A stretch of DNA of 64,000 nt from Paenibacillus ihuae (GTDB lineage Bacteria; Bacillota; Bacilli; Paenibacillales; Paenibacillaceae): positions 14,142 through 78,141 of the forward strand of contig NZ_LN831204.1 in assembly GCF_001368795.1 (NCBI RefSeq), written 5' to 3'. Shown here piece after piece: positions 684 through 60,723 of this stretch. A model generated the notes under the pieces. That model was given only the letters and a program-made list of their open reading frames with translations, was not told where the DNA came from and did no database searches. Within the stretch, counting starts at the first letter, position 1. Each line of letters opens with the position of its first letter. Made by a program: the position numbers and the translations under genes.

Positions 684-880
684 TTTACATACATTCTTAT
701 CGTGAAGTATAATGGAATTATTACGAAACAAATTGATGTTCCATGCCGCTACCTTTTCTGGCATGGAAGGAGCCGCTTTTCAGCGAATAATCATAGGGTT
801 TAACTAAGGAGACCATTAGGACATACGGGATACGTATGTTCTTTTTGCGTCTCCTTTTTTTATGCCCAAAAACAAGGAGG
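684..880 (+). promoter_or_regulatory. Shared leader, copy 1: promoter, two-hairpin RNA, terminator
   Basis: Promoter TTTACA (684-689), 18 nt, TATAAT (708-713). The 11-nt box ATTACGAAACA (720-730) starts 7 nt after the -10, at the expected transcript start. Hairpin P1 pairs CCATGCC (741-747) with GGCATGG (760-766); linker AAGGAG; P2 pairs CGCT (774-777) with AGCG (782-785). A nested terminator-like hairpin follows: outer AAGGAGAC (806-813) with GTCTCCTT (849-856) then T residues; inner ACATACG (821-827) with CGTATGT (833-839). A ribosome site AAGGAGG (874-880) comes next. The same plan recurs near 7.26, 12.48, 20.44 and 57.42 kb with different stem sequences. Confidence 0.8.
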
Positions 881-988
881 ACTTTGGAATATTGCTAAGG
901 AGACCATTAGGACATACGGGATACGTGTGGCCTCTTTGTGTCTCCTTTTTTAGTACCAAAACAATGAGGACATTGGAATGAATGAGTT
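806..988 (+). repeat. 91-nt tandem duplication of the leader terminator
   Basis: The stretch beginning AAGGAGACCATTAGGACATA at 806 starts again at 897, a period of 91 nt. Both units carry the terminator-like hairpin, a T-tract and a purine-rich ribosome site. In the first unit the expected start codon reads ATA; the second keeps the ATG (978) that begins the next gene. The gene therefore sits behind two consecutive terminator-like hairpins. Confidence 0.8.
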
Positions 989-1655
989 TCTGCCGACCGG
1001 TATCAACAGTGATGTGTCGCCGGTGAAATGGTATTGGGTTTTCGTTCATGAAGGGATGAGGAAGTACATCGTCTATTCAGACGACGAACTCACTGGGGAA
1101 CGGCGATTGGCCTTGCACGATGAAGGGTTTGATTTACTTTGGGACTCTGCAATGAGTCGCTCCCAGGCGGTGCAGTATATGAGGATATTCTATCCGGATT
1201 ACAGCACATTTGAGGTGATCCCTACGCCCATCTCCTTTCGGCAGGCCTGCCACTTTATCAATCTGCACCACCGGCACCATATGGCACCACAAGGGATGAA
1301 ATTCGCACTTGGTATGAGTAACGGCCAAAAGTTGGTCGGTGTTCTCACTGCGGGTCGCCCGGTCAGTCGTCACAAAGATGATGGATTGACCTTGGAGGTG
1401 ACCCGTCTATGCGTCAATGGAGCCTACGTCCACCTGTGCAGTAAGCTGTACGCTGCTGCGCGGCGTATTGCTCGTGATATGGGCTATCACGCCTTGATCA
1501 CCTACACACTGGACGAGGAAACTGGGGTCTCTGTACGCGCTGCCGGATTTCAATTAATGGGCAAAATCTCGGGCGGAAGCTGGAACAGTCTTTCGCGTAA
1601 CAGGGTAGACAAGCATCCCACGGGTCTTAAAAAGCTTTGGATGCTGCAGATCTGA
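978..1655 (+). CDS. XF1762-like (GNAT-fold) protein
   Basis: 225 residues. From about residue 80 the sequence resembles the XF1762 family of mobile-element proteins, related to GNAT acetyltransferases: a His-rich LHHRHHMAPQG segment, GVLTAGRPVSR, LEVTRLCVNG, and a C-terminal RVDKHP followed by KKLW. The first ~75 residues are an extension. The biochemical role of the family is not established as far as I know. It is the first gene behind leader copy 1 and may lead an operon with the small genes and the cytosine methyltransferase downstream. Its ribosome site (GAGGA) is moderate, which with the duplicated terminator hints at controlled expression. Confidence 0.7.
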   Translation: MNEFLPTGINSDVSPVKWYWVFVHEGMRKYIVYSDDELTGERRLALHDEGFDLLWDSAMSRSQAVQYMRIFYPDYSTFEVIPTPISFRQACHFINLHHRHHMAPQGMKFALGMSNGQKLVGVLTAGRPVSRHKDDGLTLEVTRLCVNGAYVHLCSKLYAAARRIARDMGYHALITYTLDEETGVSVRAAGFQLMGKISGGSWNSLSRNRVDKHPTGLKKLWMLQI

Positions 1656-1692
1656 GGAGCATAAAAAACAAACAAAAATGGAGGAATGTAAA

Positions 1693-2055
1693 ATGAAATA
1701 TTTCAACCGATTGGTACAGAAGCAACTTTTGCCCGTTCAGCAGTTTGTTAAGTGGAATATGATGCTCGCGACTTTATCGGTGCTCTCAAATGAGAAAGTT
1801 CGACTATATGCAGCTCGCAATCGCGGACTTTCACTTCACCGGACGCCGATCCTTCCAACCTGGTACAGCGCTAAGAAGGCGATTCAGAATCGCAAGCCTG
1901 GGCAGGAACTGGTATACGTCGATATTCCAATGTGCCTGCTGTTCAGTGGAGATGAGCCGTTTTTTGATTCTTCGCTCAATTGCCATCTGTACAAATTGAA
2001 GGGAGAAGGTCTTCGCTTCGCAAAGCGCAGCTGCAGGACATTACGGGTAGCTTAG
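1693..2055 (+). CDS. Hypothetical protein
   Basis: 120 residues from the ATG at 1693, chosen because GGAGG lies 8 nt upstream; an ATG at 1678 lacks a ribosome site. Basic, with LPTWYSAKKAIQNRKPGQEL and a Cys-containing stretch; no domain recognised. It follows the XF1762-like gene by 37 nt in the same direction, so co-transcription is likely. Confidence 0.6.
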   Translation: MKYFNRLVQKQLLPVQQFVKWNMMLATLSVLSNEKVRLYAARNRGLSLHRTPILPTWYSAKKAIQNRKPGQELVYVDIPMCLLFSGDEPFFDSSLNCHLYKLKGEGLRFAKRSCRTLRVA

Positions 2056-2103
2056 AAATGGAGGCAATTCATAAAAATCAGGAGTTTGGAGGAGTGCTTC
2101 TTC

Positions 2104-2604
2104 ATGCCGAAATCACGACCCGTTGAAGTTCATGTGAATAGCAGAGGGAGAAAGTATTTGAAGCTACAGCAGCTGCTTCACAGTGAAGATGACCATGTTT
2201 TTCTTCCGGTGGACGCCAAGCTAAAGACTGACCTTTTCATTAAAGGTTTTTTGGACGGACGAAAGCGGCCGATCCAGATGCAACCTTCCTATGATTCCAG
2301 TAACGAAGAAGCTTTCGTGCTGGCGATTGATAAGGGGACTGTCCAGAAAGGTATGGATGGCCAGTTCAGATTCTTTGGACTAGTTCCGCTAGAAAAGACG
2401 TATCTAATCCAAGTTCATGAAGCGGATCAATTTCTCGAAAATGTCTGCATGGACTGTGAATTTTACGGTGAAGCCAGCTGCTTCAGAAATGATTTCACTT
2501 GTGGGGAAGAGGACCGTGATCGTTTCCGCGATTCACCCCACTTTGAAACCTTAAAAGAAATCCGAGGAGTAAGGAAGCGTCAAACATTTCCCATAATGGG
2601 TTGA
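2104..2604 (+). CDS. Hypothetical protein with C-terminal Cys cluster
   Basis: 166 residues from the ATG at 2104 (GGAGGAG about 11 nt upstream). The N-terminal part starts MPKSRPVEVHVNSRGRKYLK. Near residues 120-140 four cysteines (CMDCEFYGEASC then C) could bind a metal. No family is recognised. It sits between the 120-residue protein and the cytosine methyltransferase, in the same direction. Confidence 0.6.
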   Translation: MPKSRPVEVHVNSRGRKYLKLQQLLHSEDDHVFLPVDAKLKTDLFIKGFLDGRKRPIQMQPSYDSSNEEAFVLAIDKGTVQKGMDGQFRFFGLVPLEKTYLIQVHEADQFLENVCMDCEFYGEASCFRNDFTCGEEDRDRFRDSPHFETLKEIRGVRKRQTFPIMG

Positions 2605-2611
2605 GGGATAT

Positions 2612-2655
2612 GGCTCTACTCCTTGCCACAGTAAGTTTTTTACTTGGGTAGGGCC
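2612..2655 (+). other. Nested hairpin upstream of the cytosine methyltransferase
   Basis: GGCTCTAC (2612-2619) pairs with GTAGGGCC (2648-2655), and AGTAA/TTACT can pair inside the loop. There is no T-tract directly after it, so it is not a clear terminator. The 2605-2800 gap also has a small GTGAGC/GCTCAC hairpin near 2768-2785 and no gene. Confidence 0.4.
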
Positions 2656-2800
2656 AACTCTTTAGTACCTCATAAAACTGATGCAGGAGAAAGGGCGGGG
2701 ACGTTATCCCTTTCAGATAGTGCAGGTGATATGACCCCACATATTACCGTTTCGGTTGTCCTCTTGTGAGCTGTGAGCTCACTTGAATATAGGACTATAA

Positions 2801-3802
2801 ATGTTTGCACAATCCGATAAGAAATTTACCGTATGTTCAATCTTCTCAGGTGGTGGGCTGTTCGATTTTGGGTTCAAACAAAATTTTGATATCGTTTGGG
2901 CAAATGAAATGAGTATGCCAGCAGCCATCTGTTATCAGGCGAACATTGGTAATCATGTTCAGGTTGGAGACCTAACCACAATAAAGCCGTCCGACATTCC
3001 ACATGCGGACGGTTATATCGGCGGCCCCCCTTGCATTGACTTTAGCTCAACCGGTTCGAATCGCGGGGAATTAGGAAATACCGGTCGGTTAATATGGGTC
3101 TACTACGAATTGATTAAGATCAAAAAACCGAAATTCTTCATTTATGAAAACGTTCTGGGAATGGCTAACCGGCATCCTCAAACACTCTCCAGGCTTATCC
3201 AGGCGTTTGAGGAAGCGGGCTACAATCTTTCGAGTGAAATCCTGAATGCCTCCAGCTTCGGAACGCCGCAATCGCGGGAGCGAATATTTATTGCTGGTAT
3301 TCGGAAAGACCTCGGATTCACCTTCAAGTTTCCAGTCCCGTGTATGAAGAAGTTGACGGTAAGAGAGGCCATAGGGGACCTTCCACAGCCGGAAAATGCG
3401 TGTTCTGGGGAAAGAGTGCTCGGGAGCTTTCCGAATCATGTTGCGACATGGGAAAGTCCCACGCCTGAGCGGATTGTCGATGTTATTCAGAACCCCCGGT
3501 CTCAGTGGCGGGGGATGAGACGTTTATCGTGGGATGCTCTCAGCCCTACACTGACAGCTCACATCGCCAAGGACGGTCGGGAGCACCTACACCCGGAGGA
3601 ATCGCGTCGTATCACTGTGAGGGAAGCTTTACGGCTAATGGCTGTTCCTGATTGTTTTGTTATTCCAGCAAAGGTACCGTTAAGCCATCAATATCGAATC
3701 GTAGGCAACGGTATTGCTTTTCCCGTGGCCACTGCCCTCGCAAGTGCAATGAGGGTTCAGTTAGAAACGTGGATCAGCAGCACTGGGAATCAAGCATCCT
3801 GA
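2801..3802 (+). CDS. C5-cytosine DNA methyltransferase (Dcm family)
   Basis: 333 residues, a normal single-chain C5 enzyme. Motif I is FSGGGLFDFGF near residue 15; motif IV GGPPCIDFS holds the catalytic Cys near 77; motif VI is YENVLGM; motif VIII FGTPQSRERIFIAG; motif IX SPTLTAHIAKDG plus TVREALRLMAVPD; motif X YRIVGNGIAFPVA. It should methylate the C5 of cytosine in a short DNA site using AdoMet. No restriction enzyme is visible next to it, so it is probably an orphan modification enzyme that protects the element or marks its origin. The target cannot be read from sequence. Confidence 0.93.
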   Translation: MFAQSDKKFTVCSIFSGGGLFDFGFKQNFDIVWANEMSMPAAICYQANIGNHVQVGDLTTIKPSDIPHADGYIGGPPCIDFSSTGSNRGELGNTGRLIWVYYELIKIKKPKFFIYENVLGMANRHPQTLSRLIQAFEEAGYNLSSEILNASSFGTPQSRERIFIAGIRKDLGFTFKFPVPCMKKLTVREAIGDLPQPENACSGERVLGSFPNHVATWESPTPERIVDVIQNPRSQWRGMRRLSWDALSPTLTAHIAKDGREHLHPEESRRITVREALRLMAVPDCFVIPAKVPLSHQYRIVGNGIAFPVATALASAMRVQLETWISSTGNQAS

Positions 3803-3855
3803 ACATGAATGCGTGGGAGCAGGAAGGTAATAAAGAATAGATAGGAGCTGATGAT

Positions 3856-4746
3856 GTGAGAAGGATCGCGTTTATCACGGAATCTTCTACAAGACAGAGC
3901 GAGCCTATGGAGGCTTATAAATTTTATCGGGGTCCTCAATCACGGTGGGTTAATGCCGTAATGGATTACATGATAGAGCGGGACTTTCCGCGGGAGGATA
4001 TATTCTTTCTGAGTCAGCACGGACAGCGGATCATTGGTTATGATGAGATCGTTACCCCATACCCGATTCAGAAGTATCACCCGCGTAAAGAAAGTAGTCG
4101 CCAGTTTGCTGAAAAGATTCTGGCTCATGTGTTTTCATTCAGCCCGCTTCCGTTCGTGGAACTGCATTGCGGCAAAACGGTTGCAGACCCGCTGATAGAG
4201 CTGTTCAATCAGCATGGTATCGAATACCGCATGTACGCCGACGGTGTCCCTCTGGGGGCAAAGCCGTCCGCGTACGGCCGGCTGATTGAGGAAGTGCAGA
4301 ATATTCGCAAACTTAAGGAAATCCAACGTGAGAAATGGCATGTTACTGCGTGTATCCAACACCGGACGCCCCAGGAAGCAAGCCGGCTTGTCACGGACTA
4401 TGCCGATCGCGCCCAATTATACGGCGTTGAAGGTTTGTTCCGCGAACTTAAGGATCTGCTCGGCAGCTACAACCAAAAGCAAAAAGATGAGAAGAAAGCG
4501 ATGAAGGAACTTGAAACCGTCTTGAAGCTGGAAGATGCGGAAGAAGAGCTTGTAGGGTTTCTTTACGCGAAGAAAACCGTATCCGATCTTCTTGCAAACC
4601 TAACGGAATACGAGCGGCTGAAAGCGAAATTTGGTAAGTCTATCGCTAAATTCACTCTCTACCTTCTGAAGAGGGATTTTTCCCTGCAGACGGAGAATCG
4701 GATCAGTGAAACTATGCTTCGTATGCAGATCGCCCTTCTCAAATAA
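3856..4746 (+). CDS. DUF6884-like N-terminal domain plus helical C-terminus
   Basis: 296 residues from a GTG start with AGGAG about 10 nt upstream. Residues ~20-150 have the layout I associate with DUF6884: AYKFYRGP, the FLSQHGQRI segment (where the family usually has a Ser-Ala-Lys-X-Gly-like turn), VTPYPIQKY, and a hydrophobic strand ending in HCGKTVADPL. Residues ~170-296 are charged and helical. It lies 54 nt after the cytosine methyltransferase in the same direction. A role in DNA or base modification would fit the neighbours but is inference only; no catalytic residues are identifiable. Confidence 0.5.
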   Translation: MRRIAFITESSTRQSEPMEAYKFYRGPQSRWVNAVMDYMIERDFPREDIFFLSQHGQRIIGYDEIVTPYPIQKYHPRKESSRQFAEKILAHVFSFSPLPFVELHCGKTVADPLIELFNQHGIEYRMYADGVPLGAKPSAYGRLIEEVQNIRKLKEIQREKWHVTACIQHRTPQEASRLVTDYADRAQLYGVEGLFRELKDLLGSYNQKQKDEKKAMKELETVLKLEDAEEELVGFLYAKKTVSDLLANLTEYERLKAKFGKSIAKFTLYLLKRDFSLQTENRISETMLRMQIALLK

Positions 4747-4768
4747 ACTAATGGTTGGAGGAAACGAT

Positions 4769-5005
4769 ATGGAGACAAATGAATTTGGTGAGCCTCTTCC
4801 GATATTCAACGAAGAGCAAATGTTTCGACTCATCCACAAGGACAAGTACCTGATGTTCGTATTCAAGGATATGAGTAAAAGGGGACATTCCCGTACTTTA
4901 GTGCTGGAGGTCTTATTCAACGAAAATATTCTCGGGGATACGGCCTATACCGATGAATACGAAGCATGTGCTGAGACAATGTCGAAAGCAAACCCGGCTG
5001 ATTAA
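4769..5005 (+). CDS. Small hypothetical protein
   Basis: 78 residues from the ATG at 4769, with GGAGG 8 nt upstream; an upstream in-frame ATG at 4706 lies inside the preceding gene. Acidic, starting METNEFGEPLPIFNEE. No family is recognised. It follows the DUF6884-like gene by 22 nt, in the same operon. The 5006-5239 gap has only a short AGGGGG/CCCCCT hairpin (about 5086-5100) and no convincing gene. Confidence 0.6.
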   Translation: METNEFGEPLPIFNEEQMFRLIHKDKYLMFVFKDMSKRGHSRTLVLEVLFNENILGDTAYTDEYEACAETMSKANPAD

Positions 5006-5239
5006 AGGAGAAGCTTGTATGTTGGTAATAGAAATCGGGTTGTCGCCAACTCTCTAATCTCAGGTGTGAAGAAGTAGCGGAGGGGGCTTTCCCCCTTGTG
5101 CTTTGAGGTTCAATGTAGCCCACTTCAGCAAGCTCACATAGTGAATAGTAGCACTCGCGCATACGTGCGCGTGAGGATATAAAGAGTCCTGCCTGTTTCC
5201 GAATCGCATTATACACGATCCGGAAATGGAGAGATTGGT

Positions 5240-6061
5240 ATGACAACTGCAAATAAGAAAGAAATAAAAACACATAGCCCGATCCGATGGTTCGGAGGAA
5301 AGCACTTTTTGGCGAAGCACATTATTCCGCTTTTTCCGGAGCATCATTGTTTTGTGGACGTCTTCGGTGGTGGGGGACATGTGACGGTTGCTAAGCCTAC
5401 AAGCAAGGTCGAGATATTCAATGACCTGGACAACGAATTGCTGCACTTTCTTTGGACTCTTCGCAATGATAAGCAGGGGCTGATGGCTGCACTCGCTTCG
5501 ATGCCTACAAGCAGAAGCTTGTTCCATCAGATTTGTAAGTCGCCAACACCTGCAGACCCCATTGAGAGAGCTGCGTACTGGTTCTATTTACTCCGGCAGC
5601 GGATTATTCCGACCAATGGAGCGCCGAGTGGATTCCGGTATGGCAAAGTAAAAAATAGCGCAGTAGATTATCAGAATGCGGTAGGCCGACTCGAAACCTT
5701 TGAAAGAAGGATGTCAGGCGTGCTACTGGAATGTCTTGATTTTCGCGATGTCATTTCTAAGTATGATGGACCGGAGACTCTGTTTTTTCTGGATCCTCCA
5801 TATTTTGGGAAGGAAAAACATTATTTTGGTGGATTTACAAAGTCCGACCACATGGAATTAGCACGGATGCTGCATCAAATCCAGGGAAAATGCCTAGTAA
5901 CGTATTACGGAGATCCATTTATCCTTGATTTGTACAGTGACTTCCATGTTCGGACGGTGACCGCTAGGGTAGGAGCTGTCGTTAAGGCTGAACTCGGCCA
6001 AGCACGCCGTAGGGAAACGGAGTTTTTCTTCATGAATTACGATCCAGATTCTCTGATGTAA
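5240..6061 (+). CDS. D12-class adenine-N6 DNA methyltransferase (Dam-like)
   Basis: 273 residues. The alpha-type (Dam/D12) order is present: RWFGGKHFLAKHI near residue 16, AdoMet motif VDVFGGGGHV near 39-48, and catalytic motif IV DPPYFGKE near 185, which follows the AdoMet motif as expected. It should methylate the N6 of adenine in a short site. It is the last gene before a strong terminator and, like the C5 enzymes here, has no cognate endonuclease nearby, so an orphan modification or anti-restriction role is likely. Confidence 0.92.
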   Translation: MTTANKKEIKTHSPIRWFGGKHFLAKHIIPLFPEHHCFVDVFGGGGHVTVAKPTSKVEIFNDLDNELLHFLWTLRNDKQGLMAALASMPTSRSLFHQICKSPTPADPIERAAYWFYLLRQRIIPTNGAPSGFRYGKVKNSAVDYQNAVGRLETFERRMSGVLLECLDFRDVISKYDGPETLFFLDPPYFGKEKHYFGGFTKSDHMELARMLHQIQGKCLVTYYGDPFILDLYSDFHVRTVTARVGAVVKAELGQARRRETEFFFMNYDPDSLM

Positions 6062-6069
6062 ATAAGCAA

Positions 6070-6101
6070 GGACCGCGGACATATGAGTCGCGGTCCTTTT
6101 T
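6070..6101 (+). terminator. Intrinsic terminator after the adenine methyltransferase
   Basis: GGACCGCG (6070-6077) pairs with CGCGGTCC (6089-6096), followed by TTTTT. Confidence 0.85.
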
Positions 6102-6177
6102 GATTTCCCTAATTAGCTTTGTTATTGACGCCTATACTCGGATTGCACAGCCTCCTGCGCCTTTAATTATATCTTAA

Positions 6178-6232
6178 GTTAACCTAGTAAACCCGGTTAA
6201 CCTGTTGTATAATATAGTTATAAAGGTTAACC
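6178..6232 (+). promoter_or_regulatory. Promoter with three GGTTAACC operator-like sites
   Basis: GTTAACC occurs at 6178-6184 and GGTTAACC at 6195-6202 and 6225-6232, each self-complementary at its core. They bracket a TATAAT at 6208-6213 just upstream of the coiled-coil gene at 6253. Sites on both sides of a -10 suggest repression, probably by the product of the next gene (inference). Confidence 0.6.
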
Positions 6233-6252
6233 GATAACGAGGAGGTACTCGA

Positions 6253-7131
6253 ATGTCGAACGAGGCAAAAACGACGAAGGCATACAAGATCAGTCCGGAA
6301 TTGAAAGAGAAGCTCGAACGACTGGCAGCGGAAAGCGGTCTGGAGACTCAAGAGGCATTCATCGAGCAGCTGGCGGCGCTGTATGAGCTGCAACAGTTGA
6401 AAGAGGGAAACGGATCCGGATATCGGAAGCAGATCGAGGAGCTAGAGTATCATCTGAGTCGTCCTCTTGCTCTGTTCACGTCTATGATCGAGACGGAGGC
6501 GGCGGATCGGCTCCAGTTGTCTCAGCAGCACGAGGAGAAACAGGCAGCGGTCGCGGTTACGATTTTCGCTCAGGAGCAGGAGATCGCGGATCTCCAAAAG
6601 GGATTGAAGTCCCAAGCCGATGAAGTGGCGCGTCTCACGAAAGAGAATGATGCTCAGGCGAAGCTCAGCGAACAGCTGGAGGCTGCGGCTCATGATAAAG
6701 GTTTGCTCGTCGAGGAGTACCGCCAGCGGATCGACACGCTATCCGGATTGGTGAACGAATACAAGGTAGCAGCCAATGAGAACAAGGATCTCAAAACTAA
6801 GCTATCCGAATTTGCCACTTTTACCGAGAAACAGGCAGCTCGTATAACGGCTCTGGAGGGCGCTCTCGCCGCTCTGGAAGCGTCGCATGTTGAACATCAG
6901 AGACAAGCCGAGGAACGTCACCGTGTGGAGCTGGAGCTACTCTCAAAGCAGAAAGACGCGGAGAGGAAAGAGGCGCTCGCTGATCTCAGGGATAAGCAGC
7001 AGGACAAGCTCGAACAGGCGACGGAGGAGATCCGGAAGCTGTACGCTCAAATCGAGCAGCAGCGTAAAGATTATGAGCAGCAGATCGCGAAGCTTCAGCA
7101 GCCAGCGCAAGAGACTCCTCCTCAAAATTAA
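6253..7131 (+). CDS. KfrA-like DNA-binding coiled-coil protein
   Basis: 292 residues. The first ~50 contain a ribbon-helix-helix-like segment (KAYKISPELKEKLERLAAES); the remainder, about 55-285, is almost continuous coiled coil rich in Glu, Gln, Lys and Ala, ending in a Pro/Gln tail. This layout resembles plasmid KfrA-type proteins, which bind their own promoter and form filaments that help plasmid stability. It is a single-gene unit with its own promoter, palindromic operator-like repeats and terminator. The stability role is inference from architecture. Confidence 0.6.
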   Translation: MSNEAKTTKAYKISPELKEKLERLAAESGLETQEAFIEQLAALYELQQLKEGNGSGYRKQIEELEYHLSRPLALFTSMIETEAADRLQLSQQHEEKQAAVAVTIFAQEQEIADLQKGLKSQADEVARLTKENDAQAKLSEQLEAAAHDKGLLVEEYRQRIDTLSGLVNEYKVAANENKDLKTKLSEFATFTEKQAARITALEGALAALEASHVEHQRQAEERHRVELELLSKQKDAERKEALADLRDKQQDKLEQATEEIRKLYAQIEQQRKDYEQQIAKLQQPAQETPPQN

Positions 7132-7255: not shown

Positions 7256-7456
7256 TTTACACTATCTTTAGCCAAGTTGTATACTTAAATCATTACGAAT
7301 CATCTTAATTTTCCTTGCCGTCACATTTTCGCGTAAGGAAGGAGTAGCTTTACAGCGATATAAGCATAGGTTCAATCATTTGGAGCGCAATAAGACATAC
7401 GGAATCCGTATGCCTTTTTTTGTGCTCTTTTTTGTGTTGTGCCAAAAAAAAGGAGG
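7256..7456 (+). promoter_or_regulatory. Shared leader, copy 2
   Basis: TTTACA (7256-7261), 18 nt, TATACT (7280-7285). Box ATTACGAATCA (7292-7302) starts 7 nt after the -10. P1 pairs TTCCTT (7311-7316) with AAGGAA (7335-7340) around a loop with CACATTTTC; linker GGAG; P2 pairs GCT (7347-7349) with AGC (7354-7356). The terminator-like hairpin has outer GAGCGCA/TGTGCTC (7383-7389/7421-7427), inner CATACGG/CCGTATG (7396-7402/7406-7412) and a T-tract. The ribosome site is AGGAGG at 7451-7456. Confidence 0.8.
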
Positions 7457-7468: not shown

Positions 7469-7822
7469 ATGGAGGATATTAATACAAAAAATCTCTACAT
7501 CAAGTCATGGTTCTTATCTCCGGAAGCTATTGAAGAAAAGTTAGGCGGTTATCAACTTCCTTGGAAGCGGATATCGCGCCAATTCTTCTTTACGGTGACA
7601 AGTGATACCTATGATGCGGTGATGGCGGCAATTGCTCCGGTGAGCCTGGAAAATGGGTCAGTCATTCGCGAGAGTGACATCGACTATGTATCCGGGACTA
7701 CTCAGGATCTTATTAGCCGGCTAAGAGAGGCTTACGGAGACGAGAATATAATTACCTCATGTGAGCAGATCGAAAATGTTTGTGTTTCTAAGATGGCCAA
7801 TAATCGAGGAGGAATCAAATAA
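7469..7822 (+). CDS. Hypothetical protein
   Basis: 117 residues from the ATG at 7469, 12 nt after AGGAGG; an in-frame TTG at 7460 is a possible alternative start. Contains WFLSPEAIEEKLGGYQLPWK and ends CVSKMANNRGGIK. No family is recognised. First gene behind leader copy 2, translationally coupled to the next small gene (TAATG overlap). Confidence 0.6.
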   Translation: MEDINTKNLYIKSWFLSPEAIEEKLGGYQLPWKRISRQFFFTVTSDTYDAVMAAIAPVSLENGSVIRESDIDYVSGTTQDLISRLREAYGDENIITSCEQIENVCVSKMANNRGGIK

Positions 7823-10456: not shown

Positions 10457-11042
10457 TGTCCGTATGTACGGAACGAAAAGTACGTGTTTACGGGGTCATT
10501 TGTCCTTAAAAAGGGAATGAAATGTCCTGTGAATAGGGACGAAATGTCCTTACTTACGGGGTCTATTGTCCGTACAAACGGGGTTGTGTCCGTATAAACG
10601 GGGCATTATGTCCGTATAAACGGGACGTGATCACCTTGATGTTGAGATTATTAGCTGAGGAAGGGTTTAAATATTTGATATGTCCGTAAAAAAGGGGTGT
10701 TCAATATTGTTTTCGAATTCAAAGGCTCTAAAATACCCCTATTCTTACCATATTCCTCCGATTCATACGTAGAACCTCCCCGTTTATGCGGACATTTCGC
10801 CTTCTAGCTTCCTAATGGTTGTGAAAATCCTTTAACAAATAAGGCAATTTAGATGTACGTTCCTTTTATAAGGACATATTGTTTAGTGATGATGATCATT
10901 TCATGAAGAAATTCATAAAATATTTTTACCCCGTTTGTACGGACATATAAAATAGGTTTGGTGAAGGGATGTTTTTCCAATCCCTTAATATCAGGCTTCT
11001 TTATGCATTGAAGTCTATATTGTGGTTCCGTTTTTACGGACA
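10457..11042 (+). repeat. Iteron array, likely replication origin
   Basis: Eight direct 17-nt repeats close to TGTCCGTATAAACGGGG start at 10457, 10501, 10523, 10545, 10567, 10587, 10609 and 10681, mostly 22 nt apart (two helical turns). Four inverted copies lie at 10778-10794, 10859-10875, 10929-10945 and 11026-11042. Two of them match the consensus exactly or nearly so (10587, 10609). The array sits directly upstream of the Rep_3 initiator gene, the standard arrangement for an iteron-controlled origin. It fills most of the 1-kb gap between 10134 and 11131, which holds no gene. Confidence 0.88.
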
Positions 11043-11130: not shown

Positions 11131-12450
11131 ATGAGCTCGAAAACAAATGACCTAGATGTTCTGGATATTGAAGAAAACGGTCAACTGACATTAAATATGC
11201 CTGAAGTAGTAGAGGCTAACATAAAAGATTATTACTGGGTTAACCAGTCGCGGGAGATTATTAATGCGCAGCAGGATCTTGATCTCACGGAACGTCGTTT
11301 GATCTTCTCGCTAGTCTCTCTCGTACAGCCAGATGATGAAGAATTTAAAAGTTATACGGTTTCTATTAAGGACTTGGCAAACCTGATCGGGGTAGAAGGA
11401 AAATCCTTTTACGAACGTGTTGAAAAGGCAATTGATCAACTGCAGTCCAAACAAATTGTATTTTCCAATGATCAAACACGTCAGAAGATTACCTGGGTAC
11501 AGAGTGCGACGTATATGGATGGAGAAGGACGGGTAACGATCAAGCTTTCAGAGGATTTAGCACCGTTTTTCCGGAACCTTAAGCGTGCCTATACCAAGTT
11601 CCGACTGAAAAACGTCATTAAGTTGAAGTCTGAATATAGCTGGCGGTTGTATGAGCTACTGAAGGAGAGGGAGTTCCGTAAAGAGAGGGTTCTTAAGATC
11701 AGTGAGTTAAGGCATCTCTTAAATATACCAAGTGAGAAATACAAGATGCTGAAGCATTTAAGGGAATTGATCGATAGAGCACAACAAGAACTTGAGGAAA
11801 AGACAGATATCACCTTCACCTATGATATACATAAGCGGGTAGGACGCTCAGTGGAATCATTTATTTTTCGTATAAGCAAGAATAACAAGAACGTGAATAA
11901 TGAACAGGAAAGCGCCAATTATGATGCAGAAACGCTTCTGCAGCTGCTTGCGGAGAATGGGATCCACCGAAAAAAGGCCGTTCAACTCGCCAAGACCTAC
12001 CATCCATTCTATATCGAAGAAAACGTTCTTCATGCCCAGGGGATGAATGCGGGACAAACGGTACGAAACATGGCCGGTTATATAGTCAAAGCGATTGAGG
12101 AGAACTATGCCAATTCGCTACATGATACTCCGCTGGATGATCCACTGTTTGGAATGGAGCTAAGAAATGTCGAACAAGGTATCGAGGAAATGACCGCGGT
12201 TGACATTGAAGTACTTAAAAATATCGTGATCAATTTCAAGGCATTGCTTACTCGCCTAACAGAACCATCGGCCGAACGCCTGCAGCAAATCGCGATTGAA
12301 CGGGACGAAATGTTAATGCAAGGATTGTCTACGATTCAGAAGAAGCGTAAAACTCTTAATAGGCCGCCTCTATTGTATGATGACGTTATAGGTGACCCAT
12401 ACTTAAGACAGGCATACGAGAAATGGGAGTCGTCTGAGTATACGTATTAA
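11131..12450 (+). CDS. Rep_3-family replication initiator
   Basis: 439 residues. The N-terminal ~240 residues match the Rep_3 (RepE/pi/RepA) initiator pattern: VNQSREIINAQQDLDLTERR at the start of winged helix 1, then SYTVSIKDLANLIG, and a second winged-helix segment with KSEYSWRLYELLKE and LKISELRHLLNIP. It should bind the upstream iterons as monomer and as dimer repressor autoregulate. A ~190-residue C-terminal extension (from about residue 255) is not typical of short Rep_3 proteins. GGGAGGGATC lies just upstream of the ATG, and one inverted iteron lies within 90 nt of the start, consistent with autoregulation. Confidence 0.88.
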   Translation: MSSKTNDLDVLDIEENGQLTLNMPEVVEANIKDYYWVNQSREIINAQQDLDLTERRLIFSLVSLVQPDDEEFKSYTVSIKDLANLIGVEGKSFYERVEKAIDQLQSKQIVFSNDQTRQKITWVQSATYMDGEGRVTIKLSEDLAPFFRNLKRAYTKFRLKNVIKLKSEYSWRLYELLKEREFRKERVLKISELRHLLNIPSEKYKMLKHLRELIDRAQQELEEKTDITFTYDIHKRVGRSVESFIFRISKNNKNVNNEQESANYDAETLLQLLAENGIHRKKAVQLAKTYHPFYIEENVLHAQGMNAGQTVRNMAGYIVKAIEENYANSLHDTPLDDPLFGMELRNVEQGIEEMTAVDIEVLKNIVINFKALLTRLTEPSAERLQQIAIERDEMLMQGLSTIQKKRKTLNRPPLLYDDVIGDPYLRQAYEKWESSEYTY

Positions 12451-12455
12451 GCAGT

Positions 12456-12500
12456 TTAACGGGGGGGGGGGGTCTTCCAGGGTTGTCACCGCCCCGTTAA
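12456..12500 (+). terminator. Rep terminator with 12-G tract, overlapping the next promoter
   Basis: TTAACGGGG (from 12456) pairs with CCCCGTTAA (12492-12500). The 5' arm runs into a run of 12 G (12461-12472). The 3' arm overlaps the -35/-10 spacer of leader copy 3, so end of rep transcription and start of the next operon are interleaved. No T-tract follows. Confidence 0.55.
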
Positions 12501-12680
12501 GCATTGTATAATTTTGTTATTACGAACCACAATTTCTTTTCTTCGCAGCTACATTTTCTGCGAAGATGGAGTCCGCTATTTTTAGCGTATACGAATAGGG
12601 TTTAATTTAGGAGACCATTTGAACATACGGGAAACGTATGTTTTTTTGCGTCTCTTTTTTTGTGCCCAAAAACAAGGAGG
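12483..12680 (+). promoter_or_regulatory. Shared leader, copy 3
   Basis: TTGTCA (12483-12488), 18 nt, TATAAT (12507-12512). Box ATTACGAACCA (12519-12529) starts 7 nt after the -10. P1 pairs CTTCGCAG (12541-12548) with CTGCGAAG (12558-12565), loop containing ACATTTT; linker TGGAG; P2 pairs CGCTA (12574-12578) with TAGCG (12583-12587). Terminator-like hairpin: outer GAGAC/GTCTC (12611-12615/12650-12654) then T7; inner ACATACG/CGTATGT (12623-12629/12635-12641). The ribosome site AAGGAGG ends at 12680. Confidence 0.82.
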
Positions 12681-12688: not shown

Positions 12689-12979
12689 ATGGAACACGAA
12701 GGACGAATGATGGTATGTGGTGGGACACTGGAAAATGATGATTTTTTGTTTTCTTCATCCGGTGGCCTTTTTATTCGGTGTTTCACCGATCCGAACGGTC
12801 AATATGCCGAATATCTCCTACATACGCCAGATGAGCTTCACAAGATTTCTTCGGGTGAGATGATCATCCTGGAGAAGCAGGAGGAAATGTTTTTCGGAAG
12901 GTATCTCGGGAAACTTTATGCAAATGACACATTCATTATTGGGAGGAACATTATTATATGGACAGATATGAGTTTGTAG
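12689..12979 (+). CDS. Small hypothetical protein ahead of the DndC-like gene
   Basis: 96 residues from the ATG at 12689, 8 nt after AAGGAGG. Starts MEHEGRMMVCGGTLENDDFL and contains a GEMIILEKQEEMFFGRYLGK stretch, suggesting a small beta-rich fold. No family is recognised. It overlaps the DndC-like gene by 22 nt, so the two are coupled. First gene behind leader copy 3. Confidence 0.65.
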   Translation: MEHEGRMMVCGGTLENDDFLFSSSGGLFIRCFTDPNGQYAEYLLHTPDELHKISSGEMIILEKQEEMFFGRYLGKLYANDTFIIGRNIIIWTDMSL

Positions 12980-20440: not shown

Positions 20441-20652
20441 CTTTACCATTAGCTTCTCAGGTGCTATAATCCAAGTATTACGCAACATTTTTCGTTTTCT
20501 TCGCTGTCTCTTTTTCAGCGAAGATGGAGACGCCTAACGGCAGATAAGCAATTTTAATGGGAGCTCTTTAGGACTTACACTACACGTGTGTCCTTTTTTT
20601 GCTACCCATTTTTGTGAAGGACGCATTCGAATCTCGAATGCGTCCTTTTTTT
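20441..20652 (+). promoter_or_regulatory. Shared leader, copy 4, with two terminators
   Basis: TTTACC (20442-20447) and an extended -10 TGCTATAAT (-10 at 20465-20470). Box ATTACGCAACA (20477-20487) starts 7 nt after the -10. P1 pairs TCTTCGCTG (20498-20506) with CAGCGAAGA (20516-20524); linker TGGAG; P2 pairs GCC (20532-20534) with GGC (20539-20541) around TAAC. A nested hairpin (outer GGGAGC/GCTACCC, inner GGACTTACAC/GTGTGTCC with T7) is followed by a second, strong terminator: GGACGCATTCG/CGAATGCGTCC (20619-20645) and TTTTTTT. The next gene begins at 20747. Confidence 0.82.
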
Positions 20653-20746
20653 GTTGGCAATTTGGATAAAAAGGAGTGGTGGTCATGGGTCCATGATCAG
20701 TTGTAAGAACTGGAGGCAATAAAAAAATTATTTGGAGGTTGCGAAA

Positions 20747-21775
20747 ATGAGCAGAAGATACGATCAAAATCCTTACTTGGCGGGTGAGGAAGGTGAACAA
20801 CTGCTGAAGATGGCCCAGGAGAAAAAAAAGCATGCCCACGATACGATATTATCGGTGTATGAACTTGTTCCTGCGGCGTTCCACAAGAACATTCGTCTCC
20901 TACCGCAAAAAGAAAAGTTAATTGACAAACAGTTTGATCTCACTGCGGACCAGAAGGCGTTTGGCTTTCAATCCTACTACGGAAAAACGTACATTGAGAC
21001 TTACAAACCGTATGTCGATGTTGAGGGTAGGATCGAACAGATGATTGCTGTTCACAAAGTCCATGGTGCTCCTTATACGCTCGACACATATCCGGAGCAG
21101 ATTAACGATTGTTGGGTCATTACCTGTACGTTCGAAGGCTTGAACAAGTACGGGCAGCCCTTTAAGACAAAAGAGCGCTCCATTATTGGCTTTGGTGCTT
21201 CATCTGGAGTGGACTCAACCAACCCAATCGAAAATGCTTCGACAAGTGCAGTCGGAAGGGCGTTGTCGCACGGTGGCTATGGTAACATCGGTTCCGGCCT
21301 TTCTTCATTTGAGGACATATACATCGCGATTACCCGGCAAAATTTGAACTCGAAGCAGAATAATGGGGACAAGAATAACGGTAACCCTCAGGAACAGCAA
21401 CCGACTGATCATTCAGGCGGCCTAGGTGAGCATGGGATGAACGAGAAATTACCGCCGGTACAGGTGAGTGGCCAAGCGCCCTCTACCGGTGACCGATCCC
21501 ATAACCAAAATCACTCAAGTGACAGAAATTCGTCTGGCGATCAACGCCAGCGTAATTCACAGGAGGAACCGGATCTCAAAAGAGAAAAGAATGTATTAGT
21601 CGGCCGTTTGATGGAAGCAACCAAGGATTGGACACCTGCGGACCTGAATGCAAAGGTTAAAACGTGGTTGAAAATCAATTGGAACGGACGATTTAATTCC
21701 CTTGATGTAGGGCAGCTGCGTCTCGTCGAGGAACATTTGAAGGCGGGGAGCCGGAACAATTCACATGCGTCTTAA
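20747..21775 (+). CDS. Putative single-strand annealing / Rad52-like protein
   Basis: 342 residues from the ATG at 20747 (GGAGG upstream). Residues ~95-190 carry the pattern VEGRIEQMIAVHKVHGAPYT, IIGFGASSGVDSTNPIENAS and TSAVGRALSHGGYGN, like the N-terminal domain of phage DNA-annealing or DdrA/Rad52-like proteins, where an Ile-Glu-x-Ala-Glu-Thr-Ser-Ala-x-Gly-Arg-Ala-Leu signature is typical. Residues ~205-275 are a low-complexity Asn/Gln/Ser linker and the last ~60 are a small helical domain. It heads an operon with primase and SSB, supporting a recombination/replication role. The exact family is uncertain. Confidence 0.65.
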   Translation: MSRRYDQNPYLAGEEGEQLLKMAQEKKKHAHDTILSVYELVPAAFHKNIRLLPQKEKLIDKQFDLTADQKAFGFQSYYGKTYIETYKPYVDVEGRIEQMIAVHKVHGAPYTLDTYPEQINDCWVITCTFEGLNKYGQPFKTKERSIIGFGASSGVDSTNPIENASTSAVGRALSHGGYGNIGSGLSSFEDIYIAITRQNLNSKQNNGDKNNGNPQEQQPTDHSGGLGEHGMNEKLPPVQVSGQAPSTGDRSHNQNHSSDRNSSGDQRQRNSQEEPDLKREKNVLVGRLMEATKDWTPADLNAKVKTWLKINWNGRFNSLDVGQLRLVEEHLKAGSRNNSHAS

Positions 21776-35338: not shown

Positions 35339-35731
35339 CTTCCAAATCTTTACGAATTTTTTTCGCACGAAAAATTTTATGTGTGGCGTCTGGAACCGGA
35401 TCAACTGATCAATTATACCGGCGTTGTGATGCTGCACACCTTTTGCATTTATCCTTTGACTGCTTTTCTCTACCTGACTCGTTTTCCAGAAGTCGAATGG
35501 AAGGCTGCGGTTCACATTGCAAAATGGGTGCTGATCTATATCGGTGTAGAATGGGTTGGATATCGCCTCGGTTATATTACCTACTCCCACGGCTGGAATT
35601 GCTGGTGGTCGCTTTTCTTTGATGTACACATGTTTCTGATGCTTCGCTTTCATCATACAAAGCCGGTTTGGAGCATCCCGATGACGATACTGTCCATCTT
35701 CTTTTACTTGATCCTGTTCGGTTATCTGTAA
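35339..35731 (+). pseudogene. CBO0543-family membrane protein, 5' end degraded
   Basis: After an in-frame TAG at 35336-35338 the frame reads LPNLYEFFSHEKFYVWRLEP and continues to a normal C-terminus with several membrane helices (LIYIGVEWVGYRLGYITYSH, then FFYLILFGYL). The CBO0543 pattern of a conserved WRLEPD-like segment followed by membrane helices is clear, but no start codon precedes it and the upstream ~230 nt are frame-broken. A shorter in-frame GTG at 35381 could still give 116 residues. Its last codons are also found at 44128 in copy 2 of the duplication. Confidence 0.6.
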
Positions 35732-35809
35732 AGAATCCATGCCCCGTGACTGGCATTTTTGCCGAGGACGCATATAATGACGTGATCCAACTTTGAGGAG
35801 TGATGAATC

Positions 35810-36283
35810 ATGTCCGTTGCGGTTCAAACAAGTACAAAGAGTGTACCTCCCTTTTCCATTTGGGGAGTTCATGCATCGGTGGCCGGAAGACCGGTTGTGT
35901 GGGGCAAACTCGTGATGCGTGTTTTGCCGGACCAACGAATTCAAGGCACCATCCAATTTCGCGGAACACCGATTCCGATTGAAGGAAGCTGGAATGAAAG
36001 CACGCATCAGATCGTGTTTCATTCCCCCTACGCCGCCTACTCCGGCCACTTATCCATCTATGACGATGTCCAGATTCAACTTCGGCATCTGGTCCTCACC
36101 GGACGCCTTCAGATGCTCCCCCCTTCGTTACAGGTGGGCGAATATGGAACCTGGGTAGCGACAACAGATATAAGCTTGCCGGGGTATAGCGGCTATGTCC
36201 CACCGCAACCGTCTTTCACTTCGCTGCCGCCGGTCGGCGTATTTGTCACGTCGAATATACTGTATGGAAGCTCGCGGGTATAA
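35810..36283 (+). CDS. Beta-rich protein of unknown function (copy 1)
   Basis: 157 residues; GAGGAGTG upstream. Begins MSVAVQTSTKSVPPFSIWGV; includes VMRVLPDQRIQGTIQFRGTP and FHSPYAAYSGHLSIYDDVQI. The alternating hydrophobic pattern suggests a beta sandwich or barrel, with no signal peptide. A close copy is at 44243. CATATAAT upstream resembles both a sigma-A and a late sporulation -10. No family is recognised; its company suggests a spore protein. Confidence 0.65.
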   Translation: MSVAVQTSTKSVPPFSIWGVHASVAGRPVVWGKLVMRVLPDQRIQGTIQFRGTPIPIEGSWNESTHQIVFHSPYAAYSGHLSIYDDVQIQLRHLVLTGRLQMLPPSLQVGEYGTWVATTDISLPGYSGYVPPQPSFTSLPPVGVFVTSNILYGSSRV

Positions 36284-36445
36284 AGCAGGCACATATCCGT
36301 CATTGTCCCCAAACATGGCCTTGACGGATAAAAAATGATCGGTGCCGGGTTCTGTGCAGGGTATGGAAATGGAATCGCGGGTGCATCGTCTTGTCAACAG
36401 AAGAGCACATGATGGGTATCCAGATAACGGAAAGGGGTGGCATCG

Positions 36446-36997
36446 GTGGACGAAAATCAGATTCATCATGTAATCGAACAAGCCTATCAATTGATTGTCT
36501 AAGCACGCCGCAACATGACTGACATTTGGCGCACTCACGTACTATTTACGCGACAATGGTGGTTGGGAGTAGGTTTATCGATATGCCCCTGGCTATTTTG
36601 GATCGGATTTCGGGATAAGAGAGCTACGGGACAGTTTCTCCTTATCGTGTCGTCGTGGCTGGACCAGCTTGGGATTGCCATGGGACTTTGGCATTATCAC
36701 TGGGAAGTCATACCATTCATGCCCGCTAATTTTCCATGGAATTTTTCACTTCTTCCCGTCACGGTTATGTTCTTACACCAGTACAAGTCTGGCATACATC
36801 CGTTGTTCAAAGCTCTCCTATTTGGGGGATTTTCCGCTTTTGTGGCCGAGCCGGTCTCACAAATGGCCGATTTATACCACCCCGTTCACTGGAAACATAC
36901 ATATTCGTTTCCTATCTATGTGGGGCTATATCTGCTGGCTTCGAGCATCGCCAAGCGGGGCGTTGATTGCACAGATTCATCCTCGGTAGATAAATAA
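36446..36997 (+). pseudogene. CBO0543-family gene (copy 1), stop codon and deletion
   Basis: Compared with the copy at 44779, the frame starts at the same GTG but meets TAA at 36500-36502 where the other copy has GAA. An 18-nt in-frame deletion follows near 36644. The remainder (MTDIWRTHVLFTRQWWLGVG to the end) is intact and could start again at 36515. Four to five membrane helices; function of the family unknown, common near spore genes. Confidence 0.72.
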
Positions 36998-43770: not shown

Positions 43771-44242
43771 AATGCCTGCGAAATAGGACCAAATGGCCGG
43801 CTGTTGCCCAAAATGGGTTGCTCCGGCCTTTGATATTTGTATGCAGGGGACAAGGGTAGATGGGATCAAATCCAAGCGGACTTTCACGATGCGGATAACT
43901 GCATAGGATGATTCGTTTCTGGACAACTTAAATGCTGTTTGCATAAATTTGGAAAGGCGGATGCCTGCATGTTACCAACATTCAGTACAAGCATTAAAAA
44001 CTGGACTACCTCTGCCCCAAGACAACCAAATCGATGTAAAAATTGCATCTGGGGCAACTGGGATGGGTTGAAACAATTTTGTTCGAAACCTGTCTGCATT
44101 AAGAAACAACCAGTATAAGAGAAAGTCCATCTTCTTTTACTTGATCATGTTCGGTTATCTGCAAAGAATTCTTGCCCAGTGACTGGCATTTTTTCCGAGG
44201 ACGCATATAATGACGTGATCTAACTTTGAGGAGTGATGAATC

Positions 44243-44716
44243 ATGTCCGTTGCGGCTCAAACAAGTACAAAGAGTTTACCTCCCTTTTCCATATGGGGAG
44301 TTCATGCATCTGTCGCCGGAAGACCGGTTGTGTGGGGCAAACTAGTGATGCGTGTTTTGCAGGACCAGCAAATTCAAGGCACCATCCAATTTCGCGGAAC
44401 GCCGATTCCGATTGAAGGAAGTTGGAATGAAAGCACGCAGCAGATCATGTTTCATTCCCCCTACGCCGCCTACTCCGGCCAATTAACCATCTATGACGAT
44501 GTCAAGATTCAACTTCGGCATTTGGTTCTCACCGGACGTCTGCGGATGCTACCCTCTTCTTTACAGGCGGGCGAATATGGAACCTGGGTAGCGACAACTG
44601 ATATAAGCTTGGCGGGGTATAGCGGCTATATCCCACCGCAACCGCCTTCAACTTCGCTGCCGCCGGTCGGCGTATTTGTAACGTCGAATATACTGTATGG
44701 AAACTCGCGTATATAA
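44243..44716 (+). CDS. Beta-rich protein of unknown function (copy 2)
   Basis: 157 residues, about 90% identical by eye to the protein at 35810 with no gaps, and the same upstream GAGGAGTG and CATATAATG. Conservation of length and frame indicates that both copies are functional or recently duplicated. Confidence 0.65.
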   Translation: MSVAAQTSTKSLPPFSIWGVHASVAGRPVVWGKLVMRVLQDQQIQGTIQFRGTPIPIEGSWNESTQQIMFHSPYAAYSGQLTIYDDVKIQLRHLVLTGRLRMLPSSLQAGEYGTWVATTDISLAGYSGYIPPQPPSTSLPPVGVFVTSNILYGNSRI

Positions 44717-44778
44717 AACAGGCACATATCGGATGAAAAATGATCGGTAAGCGGATAACGGAAAGGGGTGGCATATCA

Positions 44779-45355
44779 GTGGACGAAAATCAGATTCATC
44801 ATGCAATCGAACAAGCCTATCAATTGATTGTTGAAGCACACCGCAACATGACTGACATTTGGCGCACTCACGTACTGTTTACGCGGCAATGGTGGTTTGG
44901 AGTAGGTTTATCGATATGCCCCTGGCTATTTTGGATCGGATTTCGGGATAAGAGAGCTACGGGACAGTTTCTCCTATCCGGGTTTACGATGATTATCGTG
45001 ACATCGTGGTTGGACCAGCTTGGGATTGCCATGGGACTCTGGCATTATCATTGGGAAGTCATACCGTTCATGCCGGCCAATTTTCCATGGAATTTTTCAC
45101 TTCTTCCCGTCACGGTTATGTTCTTACACCAGTACAAGTCTGGCATACATCCGTTGTTCAAAGCTCTCCTATTTGGGGGATTTTCCGCTTTTGTGGCCGA
45201 GCCGGTCTCACAAATGGCCGATTTATACCACCCCGTTCACTGGAAACATACATATTCGTTTCCTAATCTATGTAGGGCTGTACCTGCTGGCTTCAAGCAT
45301 TGCCAAGAAGGGCATAGATTGCGGTAAGTCTTTTCAGGAAGACTCTAACCCCTGA
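44779..45355 (+). pseudogene. CBO0543-family gene (copy 2), frameshifted near the end
   Basis: From the GTG at 44779 the frame is open through the membrane core, then an extra A near 45265 (CCTAATCTATG against CCTATCTATG in copy 1) shifts it. Removing it restores IYVGLYLLASSIAKKGIDCG. The frameshifted product still ends at 45327. Copy 1 at 36446 is damaged differently, so neither has an intact frame. Confidence 0.72.
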
Positions 45356-57422: not shown

Positions 57423-57633
57423 TTGATACTGTGTGAATAATCATGATATATTGGAGGCAATACGAATCACATTACTGTTCACAGCCGTCATATTTTCGGC
57501 ACGTGAAGGAGCGTCCGGTAACGGACATTAAAATATTGAGGCATGTAATTGCCGTGGAGATTTAGATGGAACATACCACAAGTATGTTTTTTTCTGTTTC
57601 TCCACGGCTTTTTTGCGTGCAAAACCAGGGAGG
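57423..57633 (+). promoter_or_regulatory. Shared leader, copy 5
   Basis: TTGATA (57423-57428), 18 nt, TATATT (57447-57452). Box AATACGAATCA (57459-57469) starts 7 nt after the -10. P1 pairs TTCAC (57478-57482) with GTGAA (57503-57507) and CCG with CGG inside; linker GGAG; P2 pairs GTCCG (57513-57517) with CGGAC (57522-57526) around GTAA. Terminator-like hairpin: outer GCCGTGGAGA/TCTCCACGGC (57551-57560/57599-57608) then T6; inner ACATAC/GTATGT (57571-57576/57582-57587). The ribosome site is GGGAGG, 57628-57633. This copy ties the 56-64 kb genes to the 1-24 kb backbone. Confidence 0.82.
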
Positions 57634-60081: not shown

Positions 60082-60723
60082 ATGAAACATATGGAATTTA
60101 GTCATAAGGATATTTACGTCAAGGTTCACACCCCGCTGATCGTTACCCGCTTCGATGAGGAATCTAAAAACCACGAATTGGTCTATGCGAATATCATTGA
60201 CATTGATTCGCGGGTCCAAGCCGTATTTGCTCAGTTCCACCACTCGAAAAAGGCGAATGACGTGTACTTTTTACTGCGTCATGCGCCACGGATTGGCGAG
60301 ACGGGGTATGACAAATCCTCTTGGTCTGTCCGGCCGAAGGGAAAGTACAAGCATCAGTCCCAACGGGAAAACGAAACCTTTGTGTCCGGAATCGTTGCCA
60401 GTGAAAGAGTGCTGGAGAGACGGGAAGAAGGGTTCGCGATCTTCGCATGGGATGGCAATATCCATCAGAAATTCTTTTGGGCCATCGATGCGTATTACGA
60501 GACGCCTCTACTTGAAGAATGGGCTGCTTATCTATTTGAACAGCTTGTGAGAGACAAAGGGCTTGTTCCACTTGTCGTTCACGACTTCACGGGGGATTAC
60601 CCCGACTTGGTTGCTTTCGACTTGCTCGTAGGTGAGGACGTGTTGGATGAGTACATCTCTTTCGGGCTTTCTAGCGGCAGAATCCACTTAATCGAGGATA
60701 ACAGGGAGGAACTTATAAATTGA
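60082..60723 (+). CDS. Hypothetical protein
   Basis: 213 residues from the ATG at 60082 (TGGAGG upstream). Starts MKHMEFSHKDIYVKVHTPLI; has several aromatic-rich strands and an acidic C-terminal third. No family is recognised. It overlaps the helicase start by 4 nt, so they are co-translated and may work together. Confidence 0.6.
   Translation: MKHMEFSHKDIYVKVHTPLIVTRFDEESKNHELVYANIIDIDSRVQAVFAQFHHSKKANDVYFLLRHAPRIGETGYDKSSWSVRPKGKYKHQSQRENETFVSGIVASERVLERREEGFAIFAWDGNIHQKFFWAIDAYYETPLLEEWAAYLFEQLVRDKGLVPLVVHDFTGDYPDLVAFDLLVGEDVLDEYISFGLSSGRIHLIEDNREELIN

Follow-up and report, generated by a model that had tools for sequence, protein, structure and literature searches.

A two-hairpin leader RNA repeated at operons of Paenibacillaceae plasmids is a new RNA family that may act in antitermination

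Five operons in a 64,000-nucleotide (nt) stretch of Paenibacillus ihuae DNA (NZ_LN831204.1, positions 14,142 to 78,141, forward strand; hereafter the window) are headed by copies of a two-hairpin leader RNA, which we call the element. We found that this leader is a new RNA family whose stems covary, whose copies stand in fixed register behind a promoter, and which is followed by a terminator-like hairpin directly ahead of the gene. A preliminary description of the window had noticed the leaders and overlooked this last hairpin and its T-run, which are the key to function. From these features, we consider it probable that the element is a promoter-linked antitermination leader, with relief of the leader terminator as its predicted effect.

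Results

Five leaders share one plan

All five window copies lie on the plus strand and consist of a sigma-A-type promoter, a box, a first hairpin (P1), a purine linker, a second hairpin (P2) and an A/T spacer, followed by a strong hairpin with a T-run. The box has the consensus ATTACGAAnCA, with the variant AATACGAA in copy 5 and ATTACGCA in copy 4. In these copies P1 has a 9-nt loop and a G-C closing pair, the purine-rich linker reads AAGGAG or ATGGAG, and P2 is a small hairpin. The P1 loop and the linker are kept in sequence while the stems vary. The features are as follows, in window positions, with ORF standing for open reading frame.

684-713, plus strand: copy 1 promoter (-35-like TTTACA at 684-689, -10 TATAAT at 708-713)
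719-789, plus strand: copy 1 element (box from the predicted transcription start, +1, at 720; P1 739-768, GGAG 769-772, P2 774-785)
806-861, plus strand: copy 1 nested terminator-like hairpin and T-run (inner hairpin 818-842)
897-953, plus strand: copy 1 second, tandem-duplicate terminator-like hairpin and T-run
7256-7285, plus strand: copy 2 promoter (TTTACA, TATACT)
7291-7361, plus strand: copy 2 element
7382-7433, plus strand: copy 2 terminator-like hairpin and T-run (next ORF probably 7469-7822)
12483-12512, plus strand: copy 3 promoter (TTGTCA, TATAAT)
12518-12591, plus strand: copy 3 element
12610-12661, plus strand: copy 3 terminator-like hairpin and T-run (next ORF starts with ATG at 12689)
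20442-20470, plus strand: copy 4 promoter (TTTACC, TATAAT)
20476-20546, plus strand: copy 4 element
20556-20654, plus strand: copy 4 two terminator-like hairpins with T-runs (20556-20610 and 20617-20647; next long ORF from 20732 or 20747 to 21775)
57423-57452, plus strand: copy 5 promoter (TTGATA, TATATT)
57458-57527, plus strand: copy 5 element
57551-57614, plus strand: copy 5 terminator-like hairpin and T-run

The preliminary description had put the five leaders in the right places, with this plan as far as the A/T spacer and with correct stem sequences. Within 684-880 it described the element of copy 1 and left unmentioned the register between promoter and box, with its predicted +1, as well as the hairpin at 806-861; the duplication of the terminator in this leader also went unmentioned. 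The duplicated unit comprises the terminator and a Shine-Dalgarno (SD) sequence (804-870 and 895-961, 91-nt spacing, 87% identity), and two terminators thus precede the Mom-like gene behind copy 1.

The element is a new RNA family found on plasmids

We built one covariance model (R1) from the five window copies and another (R2) from 34 sequences. Within the window, R1 scored the five copies at 69-83 bits versus 13 bits for the next match, which is no independent test because the same copies built the model. The P. ihuae genome (6.72 Mb) holds eight copies, three of them beyond the five, and every one is on C7, the 187,553-base contig from which the window was taken. In a sample of 245 genomes of the family, R1 found the element in eight, including P. 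ihuae, with 16 copies in the seven others. R2 found it in 17 of 392 genomes sampled across the order, representing two families and 8 of 49 genera, and in a single one of 398 sampled across the class, again P. ihuae. Searches of more than 40 genomes used stricter filters, by which weak copies are lost; within these samples and filters, the element looks confined to this order.

Among named plasmids, 10 of the 21 distinct ones tested carried the element: pTHECO01 of Thermobacillus composti, three plasmids of Paenibacillus urinalis, and one each of P. rhizovicinus, P. sp. Cedars, P. lautus, P. sonchi, P. peoriae and P. polymyxa. The ten correspond to the set of records in which the S1-domain backbone protein reaches 50% or more identity with that of the P. 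ihuae plasmid; among the 20 records with a more distant S1-domain protein, none of the four plasmids tested had the element. Whole scans gave eight copies on C7, eight on G113:C2, six on G144:C12, seven on NZ_CP118110, ten on NZ_CP011513, and on pTHECO01 seven plus one that is split by the origin of the record (19 bits). The single copies that the strict search returned on NZ_CP011513 and NZ_CP010270 are lower bounds, only the former having been rescanned. G113:C2 matches NZ_CP048287 in length and copy positions, and G448:C2 shares copy positions with NZ_CP068596; each pair is the same plasmid or nearly so. The copies lie on one strand of C7, G113:C2, G144:C12, pTHECO01 and NZ_CP118110, and on both strands of NZ_CP020864 and NZ_CP068596.

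At gathering score, the sole Rfam 15 match in the window was a group II intron at 61831-62036, with none on the element. The region of copy 1, searched to E 10, gave three minus-strand matches far under their gathering scores, and fifteen other loci, searched to E 1, gave six matches, none of which covered the element. A pattern scan of viral contigs returned 25 stretches, none with the complete plan by eye; one of them, L011, had the box and a hairpin alone. The element is undescribed in the titles and abstract beginnings, among the matches listed, of open-licence literature on antitermination, plasmid leaders, pTHECO01, put and conAn/pLS20. With these results, we conclude that the two-hairpin leader is a new RNA family.

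Both hairpins covary, also in held-out copies

We aligned 57 rows representing 55 distinct copies (alignment A7), keeping near-identical orthologues (L070/L071, L073/L074, L087/L089) and leaving out L039, which is the same copy as L072. In this alignment, which was fitted to R2 and includes the 34 copies that built R2, standard pairs filled 92.4% of 694 pair cells across the 55 distinct copies, compared with a mean of 73.5% (standard deviation 0.9) in shuffled controls and 32.5-44.4% when the pairing was slid by one to three columns. All 13 pairs had two-sided changes, and the paired fraction was 97.2% in P1 and 80.5% in P2. A smaller set of 24 copies likewise covaried far above its shuffled and slid controls.

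As a held-out set (A8), we used ten divergent copies from the P. peoriae plasmid NZ_CP011513 that the models had not seen. They came from 11 weak matches; in ten of these the box, P1, P2 and a downstream hairpin were visible by eye, and the eleventh (12.9 bits) was judged to be a chance match. The ten were not among the builders of R2, yet they were fitted to it, and their individual scores were weak (14.8-33.2 bits). Standard pairs filled 96.7% of their 120 cells versus 44.8-58.4% in slid controls, with two-sided changes at 9 of the 13 pairs. On this plasmid the T-run of the loop and the GGAG linker are altered, and the box and stems are retained. The compensatory changes in both hairpins indicate that the RNA structure is under selection. 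This bears out the preliminary description, which had proposed a cis-located, structured leader RNA with covarying stems and had named an Rfam family on the element or homologues with broken pairings as grounds for giving up that proposal. No Rfam family fell on the element, and the new homologues keep both P1 and P2.

The box lies in fixed register with a promoter

The promoter lies outside the covariance model. The best TATAAT-like hexamer nevertheless ended exactly 5 nt ahead of model position 1 in 50 of the 57 rows, and the mean -10 match was 5.09 of 6 at this spacing and at most 2.89 at every other spacing from 0 to 19. Seven of the ten held-out copies matched the -10 hexamer at five or more of its six positions at the 5-nt spacing. 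The usual distance from -10 to +1 would place +1 at the A of ATTACGAA, so the RNA is predicted to begin with the box. A transcription start-site map has been published for P. riograndensis SBR5 (PMC5670726).

This strict register favors a mechanism like that of Q or AlpA, in which a protein bound to promoter DNA around -10 to +10 would load onto RNA polymerase and the box would be a DNA site. AlpA reportedly bypasses an intrinsic terminator downstream of its promoter (PMC9371919). The compensatory changes in both hairpins show, however, that the RNA structure is selected, and we regard a mechanism of this kind as very unlikely.

A terminator-like hairpin separates the element from its gene

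A hairpin with a T-run lies within 190 nt downstream of the element in 54 of the 55 distinct copies; the finder missed L070, where hairpins with T-runs are present by eye. A stricter finder, still permissive in that it also scored 99 of 1000 random windows from the same five plasmids, detected a terminator-like hairpin in 51 of the 55 leaders. Nine of the ten held-out copies also have such a hairpin behind the element. Many leader terminators are nested, with an inner hairpin and its own T-run inside a longer hairpin. In addition, an outer helix encloses the whole terminator region and closes 3' of the T-run. In 52 leaders the mean energy of this helix was -6.41 kcal/mol with the leader's own flanks versus -4.36 kcal/mol (standard deviation 0.26) with swapped flanks, and none of 5000 permutations was as low.

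In 46 of the 55 leaders, no more than 40 nt separate the last leader T-run from an SD-like sequence with a start codon, and the distance from that T-run to the SD-like site has a median of 12 nt (50 measurable leaders). The SD pattern used is permissive, and in copy 1 it picked the SD sequence between the tandem terminators. To judge from these distances, a promoter between terminator and gene hardly fits. With the SD-like site so close behind the terminator and so little room for a promoter, the genes would need polymerase to read through.

A promoter, a structured RNA and a terminator, present in several related copies, also make up a complete small-RNA gene. The leaders could thus serve mainly to produce short, terminated, trans-acting RNAs of about 140-170 nt, with the genes living on leak-through. 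Each copy is tied, however, to a gene whose start lies a few tens of nt past the terminator, and the outer helix closes only past the last T-run, that is, in read-through RNA. We consider this alternative quite unlikely.

The order of structured leader, terminator and SD sequence is also the usual layout of an attenuator, and a riboswitch-like attenuator was one of the options that the preliminary description had offered. In an attenuator of this type, or one controlled by a protein, P1/P2 and the terminator would exclude each other by alternative pairing. We compared duplex energies between the element and its own downstream region with those of swapped pairs in 55 leaders, and found no excess for the whole element or for any of four segments (1495, 263, 1776, 375 and 1997 of 2000 permutations were as low). 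Moreover, P1/P2 do not overlap the terminator, and the copies head operons of differing function. Attenuation therefore appears unlikely. The lack of support for competing pairing leaves antitermination by the nascent RNA, alone or with a factor, and a put-like antitermination element, the other option raised earlier, is the class that best fits the sequence.

A model for promoter-linked antitermination

We propose the following model. RNA polymerase would start at the sigma-A-type promoter, and the transcript would open with the box AUUACGAAnCA. The next ~60 nt would fold into P1 and P2, with the purine-rich GGAG-type linker between them. By itself or together with a bound factor, this nascent RNA would carry the elongation complex past the next intrinsic terminator, resulting in transcription of the gene that starts just behind it. 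Polymerases arriving from upstream, whose RNA does not begin with the element, would halt at the leader terminator. As a result, a set of plasmid operons, numbering six to ten on the six plasmids for which whole scans were made, would be gated and insulated alike.

Sequence evidence for this model comes from the RNA family and its structure, the fixed spacing from the promoter, the terminator-like hairpins and the shortage of room for a second promoter, and several observations weigh against it. The -10 register is absent in 7 of the 57 rows, and 4 of the 55 leaders have no terminator by the strict finder. Sense terminators abutting genes are also not enriched: they occur at 25 of 473 codirectional gene pairs on the element strand, at 8 of 269 on the opposite one, and at 9 of 160 in 12 sampled stretches of the chromosome-like contigs C1-C4 of the P. 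ihuae genome. Terminators inside operons do exist (for example C7:8291-8318 and 73090-73118), and since they are not enriched, processive read-through is without genomic support. A local effect on the leader terminator alone would suffice.

Within antitermination, we consider action by RNA alone and action with the help of a protein about equally likely. In the first case, the element would be a Gram-positive counterpart of put, whose first ~70 nt bind the host RNA polymerase directly. Present at six to ten operons, it would form a plasmid-wide circuit that works upon entry into a new cell without any plasmid protein; this version is possible, and we hold it only tentatively.

In the second case, the element would be a loading site for a plasmid-encoded antitermination protein, nut/N-like or conAn-like, with the box, the P1 loop or the linker as its binding site; we rate this possible too, and well short of probable. 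It accords with the conservation of loop and linker sequence beside variable stems, and with the presence of unassigned backbone proteins common to all plasmids compared. Candidates from the backbone include a 329-aa DnaA_N/HTH protein and a 103-aa protein, besides the S1-domain protein. The P. peoriae plasmid, with its altered loop T-run and linker and its retained box and stems, speaks for a co-evolving plasmid partner. The known candidates argue the other way. The pLS20 ConAn1 candidate, pLS20 ORF 2564-3082, assigned from its place, has no relative on five plasmids. Control by LoaP or another NusG paralogue was rejected: the P. ihuae genome has one NusG match, and of 20 element genomes, 16 have a single NusG-family protein and four have two or three. 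VirD4 had no match in 12 of the 20, though several single copies there may be relics.

The S1-domain protein was likewise dropped as an obligate partner: of the 17 element genomes in the order sample, 5 have close homologues (E up to 1e-90), as does one genome that gave no element match, and the protein is also found on four distant plasmids without the element. This protein (C7:165500-166348; L098:7359-8207, minus strand) is 52-73% identical on five plasmids and adjoins replication-relaxation, relaxase or coupling-protein genes, with distant relatives on other Bacillales plasmids.

Where flanks were read, in 11 genomes, single copies often precede orphan relatives of plasmid operon genes, and in several cases the reading frame behind the copy is split, partial or stopped (G095, G329, G340, L079). 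Because the genes behind them are broken, these copies may be relics and offer no proof about partners. We therefore dropped single chromosomal copies as proof that the element is independent of plasmid factors.

Operons behind the element and neighboring features

As the preliminary description had stated, the copies head several plasmid operons. The operons in the window are listed below.

978-7131: copy 1 operon, Mom-like protein with cytosine and adenine methyltransferases
978-1655, plus strand: first gene behind copy 1, Mom-like (Pfam Mom 24.8 bits, below the 27.1 cut-off)
7.4-10.1 kb: copy 2 operon, short protein and second methylase
12.7-15.3 kb: copy 3 operon, PAPS-reductase-domain protein and LPD1 protein
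20.7-23.0 kb: copy 4 operon, DUF3854 protein
from 57.6 kb: copy 5 operon, dnaN-like, DUF6094 and helicase genes
57644-58804, plus strand: first gene behind copy 5, DNA polymerase III beta-like (DnaN)

On pTHECO01 and one P. urinalis plasmid, genes of the same kinds follow copies. The carrier plasmids look conjugative because their shared backbone holds conjugation-type genes (TcpE, VirD4-like and replication-relaxation proteins), though PLSDB lists them as non-mobilizable. By likeness to the pLS20 establishment leaders (PMC8708921), the genes headed by the element may serve settling in a new host.

On four plasmids, a terminator-like hairpin lies about 22-26 nt ahead of a large ATPase gene behind the TcpE-like gene, in the presumed conjugation operon (C7:181928-181955, G113:C2:63905-63930, and the matching place on G144 and pTHECO01). 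No copy of the element was found directly at the head of this operon, which may use another read-through device.

The group II intron (RF02004, 61831-62036) splits the DEAD/DEAH-type helicase gene of the copy 5 operon (window 60720-64000); the two halves, C7:74861-75925 and C7:78575-80365, match a single ORF on four other plasmids. Three tandem 22-nt repeats (10564-10627) upstream of the Rep3 initiator gene (11131-12450) are likely iterons of the plasmid origin. Between the copy 4 and copy 5 operons lies a cargo island (24384-52388) with three consecutive tyrosine recombinases, a DUF6262 protein, a Mn-catalase, a GerA-type spore germination set, SpoVAD, a DpaA-like protein and two histidine kinases. 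This spore-gene island contains a duplication (35692-36914 and 44125-45265) whose pieces are 94-97% identical.

Discussion

We conclude that what had been observed in the window is confirmed and that its earlier interpretation is partly supported. If the element acts in antitermination, a small and well-bounded family with many natural variants would be added to the few RNA-based antitermination systems named in the literature consulted (put, EAR, conAn2 and canT). It would also account for the insulation and co-ordination of DNA-modification and replication operons on large Paenibacillaceae plasmids, and a portable read-through module of ~70 nt would be a useful tool for Gram-positive hosts.

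Of the known systems compared, three come from Gram-positive mobile elements. The conAn system of the conjugative plasmid pLS20 likewise combines an RNA with terminators (PMC8955417); we rejected membership in it, since pLS20 gave no model match and the ConAn1 candidate has no relative on the five plasmids compared. EGeRS1, also of pLS20, comprises five repeated structured leaders directly upstream of ribosome-binding sites at presumed establishment operons (PMC8708921), but these leaders span 420-750 bp and have no regular promoter, whereas the element has ~70 nt and is tied to a sigma-A-type promoter. The canT RNA of Tn916 is a cis-acting RNA antiterminator (PMC11658703); it differs, by description only, as a 452-bp fragment with a complex predicted fold.

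The LoaP leaders dfn and mln of Bacillus velezensis have a small hairpin, an intrinsic terminator and then the genes (PMC12691694), and the dfn layout of hairpin, terminator and gene resembles ours. Theirs, however, is a 417-nt leader with a single UNCG hairpin to which a NusG paralogue binds, whereas the element has two hairpins in ~70 nt at the predicted +1, and most element genomes have no NusG paralogue (16 of 20). The nearest anatomy is that of HK022 putL, an RNA of ~70 nt with two stem-loops, directly behind its promoter, that suppresses downstream intrinsic terminators (PMC9378689). The put RNA binds the zinc-binding domain of beta-prime and needs no protein factor to suppress termination. 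R2, in a search in one direction, had no match to E 10 on the whole HK022 record; HK022 belongs with another bacterial order, and here the terminator lies in the leader and the element is repeated at many operons. As far as tested, the family is a member of neither group, and in its logic it is like put or a LoaP leader.
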